The position numbers were made by a program, and so were the translations under genes. The notes under the pieces were generated by a model. The model worked only from the letters and a program-made list of their open reading frames with translations, had not been told where the DNA came from and did not search any database. A stretch of 27,560 bases of DNA, from the IMG/VR virus record IMGVR_UViG_3300034101_001743, positions 1 to 27,560 of that record; one strand, 5' to 3'. The DNA is from a virus. This document shows, piece after piece, positions 2,604 through 14,435 of the stretch (position 1 is the stretch's first letter; each line of letters starts with the position of its first letter).

Positions 2604-2924
2604 TCAACCGAACACGGCTTTCGCGTACCGTTGGGCGAACCGCCTCGCTCGCATCTGAACGCGAGTGCCCCATTCATTGAGCCACCGCTGGCGAGCCTCA
2701 CACGCGCAGCCGCCGGGCGTCCCCTCGGTTCGCGTCCACCGCTCGACTCGCTCCTTCGTGATGCCGCACCGGGTCAGCCATCGCTCCACGAAGTCGCCCA
2801 CCATGAACGGCCGCCACACCTCGACCGGCGGCGGGCGGCACTCGCGAAACGTGGGGAGCCGCCGGGCTTGATGCCCGCAGACGCGGCACCGCAGATCGAC
2901 GGGATCGTAGTCGCAGCGGGTCAC
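2604..2924 (-). CDS. Cys-rich hypothetical phage protein, possible zinc binding
   Basis: 106 aa. Cys residues at 4, 13, 16, 29, 53, 73 and 75 include CRVC and CAC pairs. The first half (CDYDPVDLRCRVCGHQARRL) suggests a zinc knuckle. The second half, beginning GDFVERWLTRCGITKERVERW and ending with CACEARQRWLNEWG, matches the look of a small phage protein often placed just after tail-fibre genes; I recall the pattern but no named function. The ATG overlaps the stop of the large repeat protein by four bases (ATGA), so it is translationally coupled to a tail gene. Confidence 0.75.
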   Translation of the reverse strand: MTRCDYDPVDLRCRVCGHQARRLPTFRECRPPPVEVWRPFMVGDFVERWLTRCGITKERVERWTRTEGTPGGCACEARQRWLNEWGTRVQMRARRFAQRYAKAVFG

Positions 2925-5437
2925 GAGATTGTCGCGGTGTAGACAGGAGTGTTGAACGCCCCAGAGACCAGCGTGTACGCCCCAGCCGGGGGCGAGCAGA
3001 CGGGGAAATCAATGCACGTGCAGCCAGGATTGTAAAAGCCCTGAATGAACACCCCACCCCCTTCATACAAGTTAATGCGCAGCCGGCATTTCTTGTAGCA
3101 CGTATCGTCGCAGTCTGCGGCAACGAATGTATTCAGCAATCCCGGCCCAGTGTTAGCCAGCGTCGCACATGGCTCTATCGCAGCCTCTAGCGTAAACGGA
3201 TAGGAACTGCCCCCATACGTGTACTCGCCGCCAAACTCCCATAGCGTAGTGTTCGCGTTGGTGCTGATTAATCTACTGCCTCGACTCAGCACGTAGTCTC
3301 CCTCTGCGGGCCTGCCGAACGAGCTCTCAGTCAGATACTCCAGGTTGATGGTCACCTCGGCCGGCGTGGCTTCTTCGTTAAGGCAGCACGAGCCGCAGAC
3401 GCCGGTCGCGTGAGATCCGCCGCCAGCGATTGAGGGAACTACCGGGGAGCCCGTGGCATCCGCGACACTGCCGCCGCCAGAGACAACGGTGGCGGTAACG
3501 CCGTTGAAGGCTGAAGCCTGACCCGCGTAATAGGCAGAGTTGGCGGGAAACTCTAGCTCAAAGCCGGAGCAGTCTGCTATCTGTTCGTCGGTAGTCAGGC
3601 TGACATTCGGCCCCGTTAGAAGTGACCTAGCAGGACTGGCCGCCTTGTCAAAGCGATACTCAAACAAAATGGACGCAGAGGAATACGTGCCAAGATCCAC
3701 AGGGTTGCACAGATAGGCGCGATACTCGCAAGCGTAACTCGGGATGTTGAACAGGCTGCTAAAGAACTTGCTGCGGGCCAGCACGAACGACTTGCCGTTC
3801 ATGTACTCGCCCATGCACCATGTGTTCGGGAAGCCCGTGGCCTCGTAGCCACTGCCGCCGTTGGTTATCGTGATGCTCGTGATCTTGCCGAACGTCGGGC
3901 TATCGGGGTCATCGTCCACGTTCGCCGCGAGCACCGCCCCGGCTCCATCGCTAGGGGCGATCTGGTCGAGCACTACTGTGATGTCGGCGACCAGCGGCGG
4001 GGCGTCGGGGTCTTCGCCGTAGAACGCACCGCCGTTAGAGAGGTTGATACTCGCGATGTCGCCGAGAGACTTGTAGTACAGCCCCGCGGAGTCGATGTCC
4101 ACCGACTCAATCACGCCCGTGTCCTTGTAGTACGAGCCGCCGTAGAGAACCTGCACCTCGTCAATCACGCCCGTGTCGAGGAAATACTCTCCCGCGTCGC
4201 TGATGGTGAATGATGTGATGACGCCGCCCGTGACGTTCGCGGTCACTGACGCCGGGGAAACGGTCTGCCCGGCAGAGGGCAGGATGCTGAACGCTTCCCC
4301 CTGCGTGTAGCCACTGCCGCCATTAGTCACGGTGATGGAATTGACGGCCCAAATGTCGCCCGACTGCACGACGGTCACGACAAGGATTGCGCCCGAGCCG
4401 CTGCTGCCGCCGCCCGCCTGGGCGAAGAGCGTGGGCTCGTCGCGAACCGTCTTGATTTCCAGCGTGGTCGGGTCAAGCTCGACATCATCCGGGCCGAGGA
4501 TAATGTTGAGGTACTGCCCATCGGAGTAGCCGCTCCCGCCATCTGTCACGGTGATGGAGGAGATTTCCCACGACTCAGGCGAGCCTCCCAGACTGGCGAT
4601 GTTGACCGTGAGATCCGCCTCTCCTGAGAGCGTCAGTTCCGGTTCGTCGCGTCCGGTGACGAGTGTGAGGTACGCAGCCGATTGCTCAACATCGCCCGAC
4701 CCTAATCCGACCGTAGCGGTTTGCCCGCCCGTGTATCCCGTGCCGCCGGCCGTCACGGTGATGCCCGAAATGAACCACGTTTGCGGGTTGGAGCCTGTTG
4801 CCGTGAGCGAGACGGTGAACGTCGCCCCGTTGCCAGTGTCCTCGGGCGGCTCAATCGTCAGGTCGGGCTCGTCTCGCGAGGTCTGAATCAACGCGAGCGC
4901 GGCGGATTGCTCGGTCTCGCCAACCCCGAGCGTGAATACAATCTCGTCGCCATCGGTGTACCCACTGCCGCCATCGACCACCGTGAGCCCCGAGATAGTC
5001 CAGTACGGCAGGCTGCACTCGTCCTCCTCCTCGGAGAGCGTCACGGTGATGTCGGCCCCCGAGCCGCCGGGGCCATCGGCAGTGATGGTCGGCTCAACGC
5101 GGGCAAGCGTCGCGTAACCGCTGCCGCCATTGTTGACCGTCACGCCCGTGATGACGCCGGCCGCCGTGGTCGGGCTCGCCGTGGCCCCGCCGCCGAAACA
5201 AGAATCAAACGACACGAACAAAGCCTGGAACGCCGGGCCGACATCGGGATACCCGTCGAATGTCACCGTCACCGTGTCGGGCAGTTTGCCCGTCGCACAC
5301 TCACCGCAGGGGATGTCGCAGCACGGGCTGCACGATGCCCCGAGCATGAAGCCCAGCGGATAGAGCGAGAGCGAAAAAACCAGCACCGCCAGGAGCGGTA
5401 TGGATGCCGGCTCGATGGATGCGAGAAACTCAATCAC
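2921..5437 (-). CDS. Large repeat-containing tail or fibre-like protein (GGSGY/RDEP repeats)
   Basis: 838 aa from a GTG whose bases overlap the previous stop (GTGA). The start is followed by a hydrophobic stretch (about residues 12-35) and a Cys cluster (CSPCCDIPCGEC, about 36-47), which resembles a membrane anchor or lipoprotein signal and is odd for a virion protein. Residues about 100-400 hold four tandem units of 69-75 aa, each with an [R]xEP corner (113, 188, 263, 332) and a GGSGY or GGTGY turn (104, 156, 231, 300, 373), with degenerate copies and a last GGSGY at 526. The C-terminal half is not repetitive and contains many Cys (CGSCC, CYKKC, CTC). Position behind the tape measure suggests a tail-tip or receptor-binding fibre; function is inferred. 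Confidence 0.85.
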   Translation of the reverse strand: MIEFLASIEPASIPLLAVLVFSLSLYPLGFMLGASCSPCCDIPCGECATGKLPDTVTVTFDGYPDVGPAFQALFVSFDSCFGGGATASPTTAAGVITGVTVNNGGSGYATLARVEPTITADGPGGSGADITVTLSEEEDECSLPYWTISGLTVVDGGSGYTDGDEIVFTLGVGETEQSAALALIQTSRDEPDLTIEPPEDTGNGATFTVSLTATGSNPQTWFISGITVTAGGTGYTGGQTATVGLGSGDVEQSAAYLTLVTGRDEPELTLSGEADLTVNIASLGGSPESWEISSITVTDGGSGYSDGQYLNIILGPDDVELDPTTLEIKTVRDEPTLFAQAGGGSSGSGAILVVTVVQSGDIWAVNSITVTNGGSGYTQGEAFSILPSAGQTVSPASVTANVTGGVITSFTISDAGEYFLDTGVIDEVQVLYGGSYYKDTGVIESVDIDSAGLYYKSLGDIASINLSNGGAFYGEDPDAPPLVADITVVLDQIAPSDGAGAVLAANVDDDPDSPTFGKITSITITNGGSGYEATGFPNTWCMGEYMNGKSFVLARSKFFSSLFNIPSYACEYRAYLCNPVDLGTYSSASILFEYRFDKAASPARSLLTGPNVSLTTDEQIADCSGFELEFPANSAYYAGQASAFNGVTATVVSGGGSVADATGSPVVPSIAGGGSHATGVCGSCCLNEEATPAEVTINLEYLTESSFGRPAEGDYVLSRGSRLISTNANTTLWEFGGEYTYGGSSYPFTLEAAIEPCATLANTGPGLLNTFVAADCDDTCYKKCRLRINLYEGGGVFIQGFYNPGCTCIDFPVCSPPAGAYTLVSGAFNTPVYTATIS

Positions 5438-5775
5438 GAGCAGCGGGCCGCAATGAGATACCACGCCGTCCCTTCCTTCGCGATGGCACACGGGGTCGAT
5501 GTCGCCGTGCCGGCAGTGGTGATGACCGCGAACAGGTTGTAAGCCACGACGGTATTCGGCGTCGCCGTGACGCCGCGGAATGTCAGTGTCTTCGAGGTGT
5601 CAATCGCCCACGTGCCCGTGAAGGTACACATGCGAAACACCTTGCCTCCCGGCGGCGTGTCGACCCGCCCGAACGTCAGCGGTGCCCCGTCGCGGTCGCC
5701 CTGCTCAACGCGGCGCACGACCGCAGCAATCCGCTCGGCCGCACCGCGGGTGAAATCGACGCGAGCGGTCGACAC
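5434..5775 (-). CDS. Small virion or tail-associated protein
   Basis: 113 aa with a GTG start behind a GAGGAGTG ribosome-binding site. The N-terminus (about 1-30) is helical with several Arg. The rest is beta-rich, with a closing GTAWYLIAARCS segment that I have seen at the end of small structural proteins of environmental phages; no named family. It overlaps the repeat protein by four bases and lies four bases behind the next gene upstream, so it belongs to the tail-tip operon. A minor tail component is the likeliest role. Confidence 0.75.
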   Translation of the reverse strand: MSTARVDFTRGAAERIAAVVRRVEQGDRDGAPLTFGRVDTPPGGKVFRMCTFTGTWAIDTSKTLTFRGVTATPNTVVAYNLFAVITTAGTATSTPCAIAKEGTAWYLIAARCS

Positions 5776-7027: not shown

Positions 7028-9433
7028 TCAGCCCGTCCCCCCGAGGATGTCGATTTTCTCGGCTTGGAGAGCGGAGATGCCCTTGCGGATCTGCTCCAGT
7101 TCCTTGTTGGTCTTCTTGGCCTCGGCAATCGCAGGGTCTTCTGTGAGCGTGTCGAAGAATGCCGAGATGCCGCCGCTGCGGATGTCGTTGATTTCGACGC
7201 TGCCCGTCCGAACGGTGGCGAGCTCCTGGGCACGCTCAAGCTCAATCTCGAACTGCCGAGCGGCAAACTCTTTTTGCTTGTCGAGAATCTGCTCGTTCAC
7301 TCGCTCAAGGTCTTTGGCACGCTGCTCTGCAATCTTCGCGACTTCCTTGGCCGCGTCCTCTGCCGCCTTTGCAGCCTCTTCTCGTTGCTTGGCGGCACCG
7401 CTGGCGATGTCCCGCTCTCGGGCCGCCACTTGGTCAAGGGTCGCGAGCCGGCCGCTCAACGCGTTGATGGCTTCGGCATCGCCAGCCGCACGGGCCGCCT
7501 GCAACTGCTCTTCGACGCGGAGCTGCTCTTGCTGAATCTTGAGCAGGTTGTCGGCAGCCTTCGCTCGGCTTGAGTCGCCGCCGAACTGCTGGTCGACGCG
7601 AATCTGCTCAAGGTTGGCGTCGATGATGCTCTGCACAGCGTCGGCTTCCGCCTGGGCCTTCCGCTCGGTCTCTTCGGTCGCTCGGCGGATGGTGTCGATT
7701 TGCTGCTCGTAGGCTTCGTTCGCTTGCTCTGCCGCCCGCTTGAACGACTCTTCGTTGATGATGCCCTGGTCGAACTGCCGCTGTAGTTCGGTGATGCTGT
7801 TCTGGTACTGGAGGGCGGCGTTGAATCCGGCTTCGCCAAACTTCGATGACTCATCGACCGCATCGCTCAAGGTCTGCTGCACGCCTTCGAGCGTCTTCTG
7901 AAACGCCTTCGCGGCTGCATCATCGAACTCAGTTGCTTCCTCGGCGGCAGCCTTCAGCGTCTCGACCTTCTCCGCCGCCTCGTCAGTGCTGGCAAAGAAC
8001 GACCGGAAGAAGCCGACCGTGTTGTTGATGCCATCGGCAAACAGACCGAACGCAGCCCCGACTCCATCAAGCACCGGAGAGAGAACGGCTCCAATAGCCT
8101 GGGCGACCGCCGTCACGACGTTGATGAGGCTGCCGAGCGTCTCGGTCAGCCCGGCGACAATGCCCGCGAAAGGCGTGATGACGCTTTGCCCCAGCCCGCG
8201 CAGGGCTACGCCGAAACCGTCGAACGCCGGGCCGAGAGCCTCGATGCGGGCTCGGTCTTCCGGCGAGATGGCGGCCCCGAACTTCTCAAGGTCATCTGCG
8301 GCACCGGGGATTTCAGAGAAGGTGCGACGCAGTTCCTCGCCGCTCTTGCCGAGCAAGTCAACTTGCAACGCAGCCCGGCGAGCGGGGTCTTCAATCTTGC
8401 CAAGCTCCTCCGCAACGCGAGCCGCGAGCTCGGTCGGAGCCGTGTTCGCCAACTCTTCCTGCGAGATGCCAAGCTCGCGGAATGCTTCAGCGGCTGCCCC
8501 GGTTCCGCTGCGTGCATCGTCGATGCGAGCGGCGAACTTCTGGATACCAGCCGACGCTGCCTCGATGGAAGTGCCAGCACGAGCGGCGGCTTCCTCCAGC
8601 ACTTGGATTGTCTGGAACGATACGCCCAACTGGTCAGCCGACGCACCGAGCGACTTAACACGAGCCTCCAAGTCAACGAGCCCGCGAGTGATAGCCACGG
8701 CTGCGGCACCGAAGGCAGCAATGCCACCCAATGCGATATTCGTGCTCGTCAAAAGAGACGAGAACGAGCCTGCGACGTTGGTGATTCCCTGCCGCAGACC
8801 GCCAGCAAACACCCGCGACAGACCCTCCCCGGCGGAGGCGATACCTGAGATCCGCCCTGCGATGTTGCCGAGCGGGCCGGGAAGCACTGCGAACACGCCG
8901 CTCAACTCGTTGAACTGAAGCGTCGTTTTCGCTGCGTTGTCCGCGGTCGCCTCGGTCGCCACCTCGAACCCGCGAGCCGCACGCTCCGCGTCTGTCAGCC
9001 CCTTCGCAGCCCGCTCGGTCGCCCGCGTGTAGGTCTCCTGCGAGATGCGGCCCGCCTGGAGTTGAGCGTCGAGCTCGGCGAGCGATTGGTCATACCGCTC
9101 GAGCGGCGTGAGGCTTGCCTGAGTGATTTCGGCGGCACGCTGCAAGGCCGCCGCTTCTTTTCTGGCTGCGTCCTCAACCGCTTTGAACTGCTCTGCAAAC
9201 TCATCCTTCGTGATAGTTCCGGCTTTACGAGCCGCGATGAGGTCTTGAAGTGCCTTAGTGGTGTCCTGCTGAGCCTTCGCCGCCGCCTCGCTCGTGTCGG
9301 TGAACTTGTCGAAGATGCCAGCAACACGCTCGGCCTCTTCGCCGAGCGCCCGCAACGCTTTCTGAACCGGGTCGAGCTTGAAGCCCGACGCGTCCGCGTT
9401 GATGCGTGCGGCGAGTGAAAGGATGTTAGCCAT
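7028..9433 (-). CDS. Tail tape measure protein
   Basis: 801 aa, the longest tail-module gene apart from the repeat protein. It sets tail length by stretching along the tail tube. The ATG at 9433 overlaps the stop of the chaperone fusion by eight bases (ATGGCTAA). Residues 1-170 and about 480-760 are dense in Ala, Glu, Gln, Lys and Arg, as in long coiled coils (for example AAKAAEDAAKEVAKIAEQRA). A hydrophobic stretch near 410-470 (GIVAGLTETLGSLINVVTAV and on) is the usual membrane-interacting segment of tape measures. Placement directly after the frameshifting chaperone genes is the standard order, which makes the call firm. No peptidase motif such as NlpC or transglycosylase was seen. Confidence 0.92.
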   Translation of the reverse strand: MANILSLAARINADASGFKLDPVQKALRALGEEAERVAGIFDKFTDTSEAAAKAQQDTTKALQDLIAARKAGTITKDEFAEQFKAVEDAARKEAAALQRAAEITQASLTPLERYDQSLAELDAQLQAGRISQETYTRATERAAKGLTDAERAARGFEVATEATADNAAKTTLQFNELSGVFAVLPGPLGNIAGRISGIASAGEGLSRVFAGGLRQGITNVAGSFSSLLTSTNIALGGIAAFGAAAVAITRGLVDLEARVKSLGASADQLGVSFQTIQVLEEAAARAGTSIEAASAGIQKFAARIDDARSGTGAAAEAFRELGISQEELANTAPTELAARVAEELGKIEDPARRAALQVDLLGKSGEELRRTFSEIPGAADDLEKFGAAISPEDRARIEALGPAFDGFGVALRGLGQSVITPFAGIVAGLTETLGSLINVVTAVAQAIGAVLSPVLDGVGAAFGLFADGINNTVGFFRSFFASTDEAAEKVETLKAAAEEATEFDDAAAKAFQKTLEGVQQTLSDAVDESSKFGEAGFNAALQYQNSITELQRQFDQGIINEESFKRAAEQANEAYEQQIDTIRRATEETERKAQAEADAVQSIIDANLEQIRVDQQFGGDSSRAKAADNLLKIQQEQLRVEEQLQAARAAGDAEAINALSGRLATLDQVAARERDIASGAAKQREEAAKAAEDAAKEVAKIAEQRAKDLERVNEQILDKQKEFAARQFEIELERAQELATVRTGSVEINDIRSGGISAFFDTLTEDPAIAEAKKTNKELEQIRKGISALQAEKIDILGGTG

Positions 9434-10099
9434 CGGGCAGTTCCAGGTCGCCGAGCCCAAACGCTTGGCGGAGTTGCATCAGTGCTGCGAAGTCTTGCGT
9501 CTCGTGTTGTGGCGGCGTCTCGACCGGGTTGAAATCCGAAGGCTTGGGACGCTTGCCCTTCTCGCAGTGCGGAGCCAGCAACGCCGCAGCGAGCAGGCTC
9601 GTTTGCTGCCACGAGTCAGGCAACGCCGCGAACCATCGCGTATAGGCGATGTGCTCGGAGAGTTCCGCCGATGTCATCCGGCGGCACAACTCCCCTTGCG
9701 TCATCCGCAACTCGCGAGACAACGCGACGATGAATCGCCGCGTCGGGCTCGCGTTTAGGATTTTCCCAGCTCTTGAACATCCGCCTCCGTCATTTTGTTG
9801 TGCTTCATCGCCTCGTCGAACAGCCGGCCGCACACCGCGCCCGACTTCGCCGCGAGGGCGTCCACCTTGTCGCGGGTGAAGAGCAACTTGCCCGCCTCGT
9901 CGCACAGCACCCGAGCTAGATACTGCGTGCGGAAGTTGGCGATACCCTTGTCCCGCTGACCAATCCACATTCGCTCATACTCGTCACGCTCACCCACGCT
10001 CATCACGCGAATGTAGACATCGCCGCCCCACTCGGGGACCGCGACTTTCTTGAGCCCCATGTCATCAGCCGCGAGAATCTGGTCTGCCGTCAGTGCCAT
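9426..10099 (-). CDS. Tail assembly chaperone, long form made by -1 frameshift (GT-like)
   Basis: A predicted 224-aa fusion: the first 113 codons are shared with the short chaperone, then the reading frame slips back one base at GGGAAAA (9767-9761) and continues through 111 more residues to the TAA at 9426. In lambda-like phages this G/GT pair binds the tape measure and loads tail tube protein. The downstream part (ILNASPTRRFIVALSRELR, then MTSAELSEHIAYTRWFAALP) looks like a T-domain, including the 'SAELSEHIAYTRW' stretch typical of such extensions. Frame arithmetic agrees with a -1 shift. The downstream part has no convincing start of its own, so fusion is the best explanation. Confidence 0.85.
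9713..9767 (-). promoter_or_regulatory. Programmed -1 frameshift site with downstream stem
   Basis: The heptamer GGGAAAA at 9767-9761 is read G GGA AAA in the zero frame, a canonical X XXY YYZ slippery site differing from lambda's GGGAAAG by one base. Seven bases later an outer stem CGCGAG (9753-9748) pairs with CTCGCG (9718-9713) and encloses a 7-bp inner stem GCGGCGA (9741-9735) with TCGTCGC (9730-9724), one G-U pair, closed by the loop TTCA. A stable structure at this distance is the expected stimulator. The zero-frame stop at 9757-9755 lies within the spacer. Confidence 0.85.
9755..10099 (-). CDS. Tail assembly chaperone, short form (G-like)
   Basis: 114 aa, ATG behind an AGGAGTG ribosome-binding site. 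It resembles phage tail assembly chaperones: VPEWGGDVYIRVMSVGERDEYE near 21-42, followed by helices ending in NKMTEADVQELGKS. It lies immediately ahead of the tape measure and behind the tail-tube region. The short form ends at a TAA four codon-steps past the slippery heptamer; most ribosomes would make this product and a minority the long fusion. Both are non-virion assembly factors by analogy with lambda gpG and gpGT. Confidence 0.85.
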   Translation of the reverse strand: MALTADQILAADDMGLKKVAVPEWGGDVYIRVMSVGERDEYERMWIGQRDKGIANFRTQYLARVLCDEAGKLLFTRDKVDALAAKSGAVCGRLFDEAMKHNKMTEADVQELGKS

Positions 10100-10111: not shown

Positions 10112-10474
10112 CTAGGGATGCGTCGGTGCGCCGACCGTATCTTGAATCCTAAAAGTGAACGCAAATCGCACGGCATCATTCGCGATGGCTTGGATGCGAG
10201 CGTTCTCGAAGATGCAGTCACGGTCGAACCACTGAATGACCGGGCCGCTGGTTGCAGTGCGGCCCTCAAACTTGAGCCGCTTCCGCTGCCCGTACTCCGA
10301 CTCGGGCAGGTTCGCCGTTGAGAACCCGGCGATCTCAATGGTGCCGAAGCTCGGCGTCCACGTAGTCACGCGACCAATGGGCAGACCGCGGTCGCGGTTG
10401 ATGTCGAGCGTCTGCACTTCCGCCAGCGGCAGCGAGCCCCACGAAACCGTAAACCCCTGGCACGGGATTGGCAT
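10112..10474 (-). CDS. Hypothetical tail protein
   Basis: 120 aa, ATG with a GGGAGGGC ribosome-binding site. Beta-rich, starting MPIPCQGFTVSWGSLPLAEV and with repeated short strands. It lies between the tail-tube candidate and the chaperone genes, a place usually held by tail-tube or tube-associated proteins. The opening 'FTVSWGSLPLAEVQTLDINRD' is compatible with a tube-like beta-barrel. It could be a second tube protein or a tube domain carried separately; no family is firmly recognised. Confidence 0.75.
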   Translation of the reverse strand: MPIPCQGFTVSWGSLPLAEVQTLDINRDRGLPIGRVTTWTPSFGTIEIAGFSTANLPESEYGQRKRLKFEGRTATSGPVIQWFDRDCIFENARIQAIANDAVRFAFTFRIQDTVGAPTHP

Positions 10475-10493: not shown

Positions 10494-10922
10494 TTAGCGG
10501 GCGACCGTGAGAACGCCCTGGCCGCGGATAGCGTCGTTCGTCGCCAGCGTCAGCGTCGAGCTCTGCACCGTGTGGTAGCTCGCCGTGGTGCCGCCGACTA
10601 GGTCCACACCCGCGACCGTGATTCTGTAGGTGCCAGTGGCACCGTCCGAAATCACAACCCGGCCGATGTAGTCAAACGTAATGGTACGGCCCGACCCTCC
10701 GTCATCGGCAGGAATGACCAGCGGAGGAGAAAGACGGGCCGCCTGCTCTCCGGTCGTCTGCCCGAGGTGGGCAATGTCGATCTGCGTGTCAGCCGCCGCG
10801 CCTGGGTTCGTGTTCGAGATGACGATGTTCGATACGACGTAGGTGCTCGTGATGCCATTCAGCGACAGCGTGAGCTTCGTTCCGGCACTCGTTCCGACGC
10901 CATCATGCGGAGTCGCAGACAT
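10494..10922 (-). CDS. Probable major tail tube protein
   Basis: 142 aa. TAATG overlap with the tail-terminator gene places it as the next cistron. The sequence is a beta-rich Gly/Thr/Ser protein with GTKLTLSLNG near the start, a DTQIDIAHLGQ motif (about 46-56) and a GGSGRTITFDY strand. A 'DxTHLG' style motif after a first beta hairpin is common in siphophage tail-tube proteins, and the gene order (terminator, tube, chaperone, tape measure) agrees. The length is somewhat short for a tube protein, so the neighbouring 120-aa protein is a rival candidate. Confidence 0.6.
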   Translation of the reverse strand: MSATPHDGVGTSAGTKLTLSLNGITSTYVVSNIVISNTNPGAAADTQIDIAHLGQTTGEQAARLSPPLVIPADDGGSGRTITFDYIGRVVISDGATGTYRITVAGVDLVGGTTASYHTVQSSTLTLATNDAIRGQGVLTVAR

Positions 10923-13455: not shown

Positions 13456-13654
13456 GCGGTGGCCGCCCTCGCTTCCTCGGTGTCAGATCCGCCCGTTCGC
13501 CGCCGGGCTCAACGCTCGCCGTTTCGATGAGGTCCATCTGGGTCTCGCGTTCGGCGATGCCGTCGCGAATGAGCCGCTGGGCCGTCTCGTCTTCACAATC
13601 CACGACCGTCCCGAGGCGGTAGGTCGAGTAGTTCTGCCTAAGTTTGATTTTCAC
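13412..13654 (-). CDS. Small hypothetical protein, Mu gp36/gp8-like opening
   Basis: 80 aa from a GTG sharing bases with the preceding stop (GTGA, 13651-13654). The opening VKIKLRQNYSTYRLGTVVD, then DETAQRLIRDGIAE, matches a small phage head-region protein family whose members start 'KVKLLKNW..GxxV' and end the first unit with 'IxxGxAE'; function of these is not known to me. The second half is basic and Pro-rich (RKRGRPPR), possibly an AT-hook-like DNA contact. An ATG 18 bases upstream is possible but lacks a ribosome-binding site. Confidence 0.65.
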   Translation of the reverse strand: MKIKLRQNYSTYRLGTVVDCEDETAQRLIRDGIAERETQMDLIETASVEPGGERADLTPRKRGRPPRAIPQSEDVDAAGG

Positions 13655-14385
13655 GATTGGGGCACACTCCATGCAGTTTTCGGGCGACCGTTCGCGTTGT
13701 AATCGTTGACGTACTGGAATACGGGCTTCTGCAGGTCGCGACCGGGCCAGACCGAAACCCACTCGCCGTGCCCGATGCTCACGCGGGGCGTGATGTAGAG
13801 GCGATTGCCGCCGGCTCGGAACTGTTTCCAAAAATGGATGTCAGAGTCCGTTCTGCCATCGCCGTACTCGCCATCCTTGTTGGGCTGGTCTTGGAACCAC
13901 GGCTTCGGCGTTCTCTTCAACGCCTTCGTCGAGATGAGCGTGCAGCCGAAATGAGCACTATCGACTTCCTGCACGGGCTCCGCGAACCACGACATCGGCA
14001 ACTCTGTCTGCCCGCCCGGCGGCGGATTGTCGAGCGTGCCGGGCAGGGTGAACATCGGGCGACCGTCTTCGCGTTTCACTTGGAGCGGCGCGAGAGCGTC
14101 GCACTGAAAAGCCATCGCGAGCGAGACAAGTTCCTCAACCGTCTTTCGGTCCCAAAAGGAATCCATGTCAGTGCAGAGAATGAACTCGGTCGAGTCGATG
14201 AACTGCTCAAGGCACCGACTGAGGACCTGTCCCCACAGAGCCCCCTGCCCGAGCGTGGGGCGGATGCCGAGCGGCATCAACGCCTGAGCCCATCCGAAGA
14301 CATTCGAGAGAGGGCCGAACCGCGGCCCGCTCATCACGCACTCAATCCGAACGTCGACATCGGTCGAACCGACCTTGACAATCAT
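13651..14385 (-). CDS. Glycosyltransferase-like protein (GT-A type) in the head module
   Basis: 244 aa. ATG at 14385 follows GAGGGAT at a good distance. Features of a GT-A (family 2-like) fold: a short first strand and loop (VDVRIECVMSGPRFG), a CTDMDSFWD segment with the Asp-X-Asp motif at 73-75 that would bind a metal and nucleotide-sugar, then HFGCTLISTKAL and KPWF (about 145-163), and a late SDIHFWKQ...RLYITPRVSIGH stretch (about 181-206) as in acceptor-side segments. It lies between the putative decoration protein and the connector genes, so a virion protein is a possible acceptor. Alternatives: a glycan-modifying enzyme for host surface, or a non-catalytic homologue. Confidence 0.8.
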   Translation of the reverse strand: MIVKVGSTDVDVRIECVMSGPRFGPLSNVFGWAQALMPLGIRPTLGQGALWGQVLSRCLEQFIDSTEFILCTDMDSFWDRKTVEELVSLAMAFQCDALAPLQVKREDGRPMFTLPGTLDNPPPGGQTELPMSWFAEPVQEVDSAHFGCTLISTKALKRTPKPWFQDQPNKDGEYGDGRTDSDIHFWKQFRAGGNRLYITPRVSIGHGEWVSVWPGRDLQKPVFQYVNDYNANGRPKTAWSVPQS

Positions 14386-14401
14386 GGATCCCTCAAACAG
14401 A

Positions 14402-14435
14402 GATGGCGGGCACGGCTCATGCCGCACCCGCCATC
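14402..14435 (-). terminator. Strong intergenic hairpin, possible attenuator
   Basis: In the 74-base gap between two cistrons lies a near-perfect hairpin: arms GATGGCGGGTGCGGC and GCCGTGCCCGCCATC pair over 15 positions with two G-U pairs, around the loop ATGA. It is followed by TCTGTTTG, a weak T-tract, so it may be a partial terminator lowering downstream expression, or an RNA-stability element, rather than a strict terminator. Confidence 0.6.

Follow-up and report, generated by a model that had tools for sequence, protein, structure and literature searches.

Gene G and frame T of an uncultured tailed phage are very probably joined by a lambda-type programmed -1 frameshift

The window analysed here, a stretch of 27,560 bases from an IMG/VR virus record, carries its structural genes on the minus strand, and directly before the tape measure gene two overlapping frames, G and T, raise the question of how ribosomes reach the second of them. 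In phage lambda the corresponding overlap is crossed by the G/GT frameshift, reportedly described by Levin et al. in 1993 and by Xu, Hendrix and Duda in 2004. This programmed -1 shift is a classic example among tailed phages (PMC5009743). An initial annotation had proposed the same arrangement for the window, and our analysis supports it: the chaperone family of G, the gene order, the phase of the slippery site, the -1 direction, the downstream stem and the conservation among relatives all point to programmed -1 ribosomal frameshifting as the source of a lambda-type G/GT pair of tail assembly chaperones. We put the probability of this reading at about 0.95. The features concerned are collected in Table 1.

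Table 1. Features of the G-T locus in the window
Feature	Coordinates	Strand	Basis or remark
Gene G, tail assembly chaperone, 0-frame product, 114 aa	9755-10099	(-)	phrog_344, translation
Slippery heptamer G GGA AAA	9761-9767	(-)	phase, conservation, synonymous codon bias
G stop TAA, 0 frame	9755-9757	(-)	within the spacer separating heptamer from stem
Putative stimulatory hairpin	9713-9753	(-)	7 nt 3' of heptamer; folding energy, shuffles
T, -1 frame extension GKILNASPTRRF..., predicted C-terminal part of G-T fusion	9426-9767	(-)	phrog_337, selection
Internal ATG of T, candidate secondary start	9702-9704	(-)	conserved in 97/97 haplotypes
Tape measure gene, 3' of T	7028-9433	(-)	phrog_9483 tape measure, E 6e-26, scan from 9442

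In a profile search, G matches the tail assembly chaperone family phrog_344 with an E value of 4e-28, and its score against Phage_TAC_1 lies under Pfam's cut-off. The -1 frame is open from a point 5' of the heptamer; it matches the tail protein family phrog_337 (E 6e-9) and bears only a weak likeness to known T families, its match to the Pfam family Minor tail protein T (Phage_tail_T) being weak and sub-threshold. The ATG of the tape measure gene overlaps the 3' end of T (GATGGCTAA). A tblastn search with T against phage isolate records returned no match, and a host search found no relatives of G in bacterial genomes. The minus-strand structural set of the window further comprises terminase, portal, protease, capsid, connector and tail genes. 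Between the tail terminator and G lie two genes without a clear family match (10112-10474 and 10494-10922, minus strand), one of which presumably encodes the major tail protein.

The initial annotation had read the heptamer GGGAAAA in the phase G GGA AAA, with frames before and after it that differ by -1 and a junction at fusion codons 113-114, and the frames bear out each of these points. The first base of the heptamer is codon position 3 of G, whose 3' end reads CTG GGA AAA TCC TAA, and a -1 slip at this site would lead into GGG AAA ATC CTA AAC..., read as GKILNASPTRRF... down to 9426. The predicted junction lies between ...QELGK and ILNASPTR, and the junction peptide predicted for the window is ...QELGKILNASPTR. 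As a bare word, GGGAAAA occurs at chance level (three times in the window, with about two expected). In-phase sites of the form XXXYYYZ, where Y is A or T, are rare, accounting for 4 of the 5829 codon steps in the 17 window ORFs; given Leu-Gly-Lys and the codon usage of the window, G GGA AAR would arise by chance with a probability of about 0.04.

Three scans of viral contigs, some of which were retrieved by several scans, yielded about 230 loci representing 97 distinct haplotypes. Every haplotype retains T as an open -1 frame. A canonical heptamer is found in 91 (GGGAAAA in 77, AAAAAAC in 13, where the site sits one codon downstream, and GGGAAAG in one), and the remaining six carry GGGGAAA. 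On a tree of G and T, five changes of site type are needed, the least possible number being four. The codons within the heptamer are strongly biased: glycine is encoded by GGA in 78 of 84 cases and by GGG in the other six, compared with GGA for 52 of 827 glycines (6%) elsewhere in G, and lysine is encoded by AAA in 96 of 97 cases, compared with 82 of 679 (12%) elsewhere in G. Protein function does not account for this bias, which is a constraint at the synonymous level.

The heptamer is followed by a putative stimulatory hairpin (CGCGAG-CC-CGACGCGGCGA-UUCA-UCGUCGCGUUG-U-CUCGCG, 9753-9713) composed of 6 bp, a 2x1 internal loop, a further 11 bp and a UUCA loop. The initial annotation had described a two-part stem starting seven bases downstream; the spacing is exact, but in place of a double stem there is a single hairpin interrupted by an internal loop. 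Its folding energy is -29.8 kcal/mol (z -3.2), matched by none of 200 dinucleotide shuffles. Since the DNA of the hairpin also encodes T, a second shuffle test preserved the T protein and its codon usage, and none of 1000 such shuffles folded as low as the native sequence (-27.9 kcal/mol against a mean of -12.8).

Comparison of heptamer and stem among relatives, a check suggested in the initial annotation, came out in favour of the heptamer and of a hairpin at this place. Across 92 haplotypes, protein-preserving codon shuffles reveal excess folding in the 51 nt that follow the heptamer (z averages -2.9 and is below -2 in 78%), and z lies between -1.0 and +0.6 in 18 other segments along G and T; the excess thus peaks exactly behind the heptamer. 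The spacer between heptamer and stem measures mostly 4-9 nt in relatives. The pairs themselves vary by clade, and one haplotype (L057) is without excess folding. Because individual pairs differ between clades, RNAalifold found no consensus structure across them, and we rejected covariation of one fixed structure common to all. The structure of the window nevertheless has 73.5% of its cells paired across relatives, above every slid version of itself. Support for the hairpin is accordingly positional, not pairwise: its presence at this place is conserved and its exact pairing is not. We also rejected an upstream Shine-Dalgarno-like stimulator, which occurs in 86-93% of haplotypes but is expected in 79% from codon choice alone.

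The absolutely conserved ATG within T invites two other accounts of how T is made. In the better of these, the frameshifted G-T fusion would be accompanied by a shorter free T started at this ATG. Conservation in all 97 haplotypes speaks for such a start, but selection for a Shine-Dalgarno sequence is not evident (-3.8 kcal/mol before the ATG, near the -3.2 expected from codon shuffles), the 3' arm of the hairpin would mask the site, and the residue may be simply structural. The methionine is surrounded by many invariant residues of T and is probably merely a conserved amino acid. We therefore regard a second, free T product as improbable.

In the other account, T would be a separate gene translated from this ATG or from another start, with no frameshift and with an incidental heptamer. 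The invariance of the ATG would suit it, as would the fact that in some clades the 3' arm of the stem places G-rich bases upstream of the ATG, but the selection acting on T contradicts it. In the 18 codons that separate the slip site from the first conserved ATG, the T frame has a pN/pS of 0.43 and the two other frames have 1.15 and 1.69; beyond this ATG the T frame has 0.35. Purifying selection upstream of the ATG requires translation from further upstream, so ribosomes must enter T before that codon, and the ATG is excluded as the sole route to T. The unremarkable Shine-Dalgarno strength and the many invariant neighbours of the methionine weigh against a separate gene as well, no other T-frame start codon near the site is kept in all 97 haplotypes, and the synonymous bias of the heptamer would be left unexplained. 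Independent translation of T is thus very unlikely. Relatives that lack the heptamer and start T in the ordinary way, which the initial annotation had named as contrary evidence, were not seen among the haplotypes; T is conserved 5' of the first conserved ATG, though six haplotypes have GGG for GGA. In one group, a stop in the -1 frame lies 19 nt before the stop of G, so T can be entered there only at the heptamer region or within the few codons that come next. Finally, an artefact of sequencing or assembly in a single contig, conceivable when only one window is given, is refuted by the relatives and can be set aside almost entirely, since about 230 contigs, drawn from many metagenomes, and annotated isolates share the change of frame at the same place.

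For the programmed frameshift, we infer the slippage, its rate and the protein functions from a frame arrangement, conservation and selection that are observed. Most ribosomes would read G to its stop (9757-9755). A minority would pause at the hairpin while tRNA-Gly and tRNA-Lys occupy GGA AAA, shift by -1 onto GGG AAA and then translate T as far as 9426; the resulting fusion would measure about 224 aa. If the proteins act as in lambda, the G part would form a coat around the tape measure protein, and the small number of T parts would bring in the major tail protein. For E. coli, G_GGA_AAA is described as inefficient compared with G_GGA_AAG and other X_XXA_AAG heptamers (PMC4066793), which makes the frameshift rate in the real host uncertain. 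The same source places the start of stimulatory structures generally 5-8 nt downstream and credits stimulators with a large increase in rate, an account with which the combination of a strong hairpin and a weaker heptamer agrees.

The six haplotypes with GGGGAAA (L049, L094, L096, L097, L100 and L104) represent about 31 contigs, including about 25 further ones, and form one supported clade that adjoins a GGGAAAA row in the G+T tree. They depart from the XXXYYYZ pattern by a single synonymous change, GGA to GGG. In this lineage, as in L049:1051-1392, the site reads G GGG AAA, T is kept and the hairpin is stronger, with z values among the lowest observed (about -3.8 to -5.7). Upstream of the first conserved ATG, the T frame of the clade is still under strong purifying selection, with a pN/pS of 0.11. 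At such a site the P-site tRNA re-pairs perfectly, and tRNA-Lys would face GAA, which offers no normal A-site re-pairing. There is, in our judgement, an even chance that G GGG AAA is a natural frameshift site that works by P-site slippage (giving ...LGENL) or by A-site G-U re-pairing (giving ...LGKNL), aided by the stronger stem. PMC10885494 considers related sites at which G-U re-pairing would be needed, among them GGGGGAA, which occurs in many actinophages; for GGGGAAA in tail chaperones we found no report among the papers covered by our literature search.

Lambda and the window have in common a tail chaperone before the tape measure gene, a -1 shift near the 3' end of G at G GGA AAR, and a long and a short product, the shift and the two products being predicted for the window. 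They differ in that the heptamer of the window ends in A and that of lambda in G, in the strong conserved hairpin behind the heptamer of the window, and in the sub-threshold Pfam match of its T. The initial annotation had presented GGGAAAA as a clean natural variant of the lambda heptamer. The identical heptamer is, however, already given for the tail chaperones of mycobacteriophage TM4 (PMC4626039, citing Xu et al. 2004) and of Microbacterium phage Bush, for which the -1 direction is stated (PMC11749239). Both phages are absent from the tblastn matches of G, and the likeness concerns the heptamer.

Cultured relatives are the Streptomyces phages Dubu and phiSASD1 and the Rhodococcus phage Jflix2, whose G proteins are 38-46% identical to that of the window (tblastn). 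In all three, a joined G-T gene is annotated with the major tail protein region on one side and the tape measure gene on the other, as here. The slip site of Dubu and phiSASD1 is G GGA AAC, one codon further on than in the window, and that of Jflix2 (L084) is probably G GGT TTC. In the Rhodococcus phage REQ1 (L082, 2492-3186), we saw no canonical X XXY YYZ in the G/T overlap up to 25 codons from the G stop, and the gene that follows is annotated as a hypothetical protein in its own right.

The mechanism has long been known, and the GGGAAAA heptamer has been reported before. Our results indicate that a large group of uncultured tailed phages from IMG/VR metagenomes very probably uses a lambda-type G/GT frameshift. 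These phages form a natural data set, with a heptamer that varies (GGGAAAA, GGGAAAG, AAAAAAC and GGGGAAA) and a frame and hairpin that stay. For annotation, the G and T frames should be joined.

Two other minus-strand genes of the window deserve mention. Between the capsid and connector genes, a gene of 258 aa (13651-14427) has a marginal match to an unknown family, and its product contains a CTDMDSFW stretch that, by eye, resembles the DxD motif of glycosyltransferases. A protein of 856 aa (2921-5491) is built with repeated GGSGY-type segments and has weak matches to connector and to tail fibre/baseplate families.
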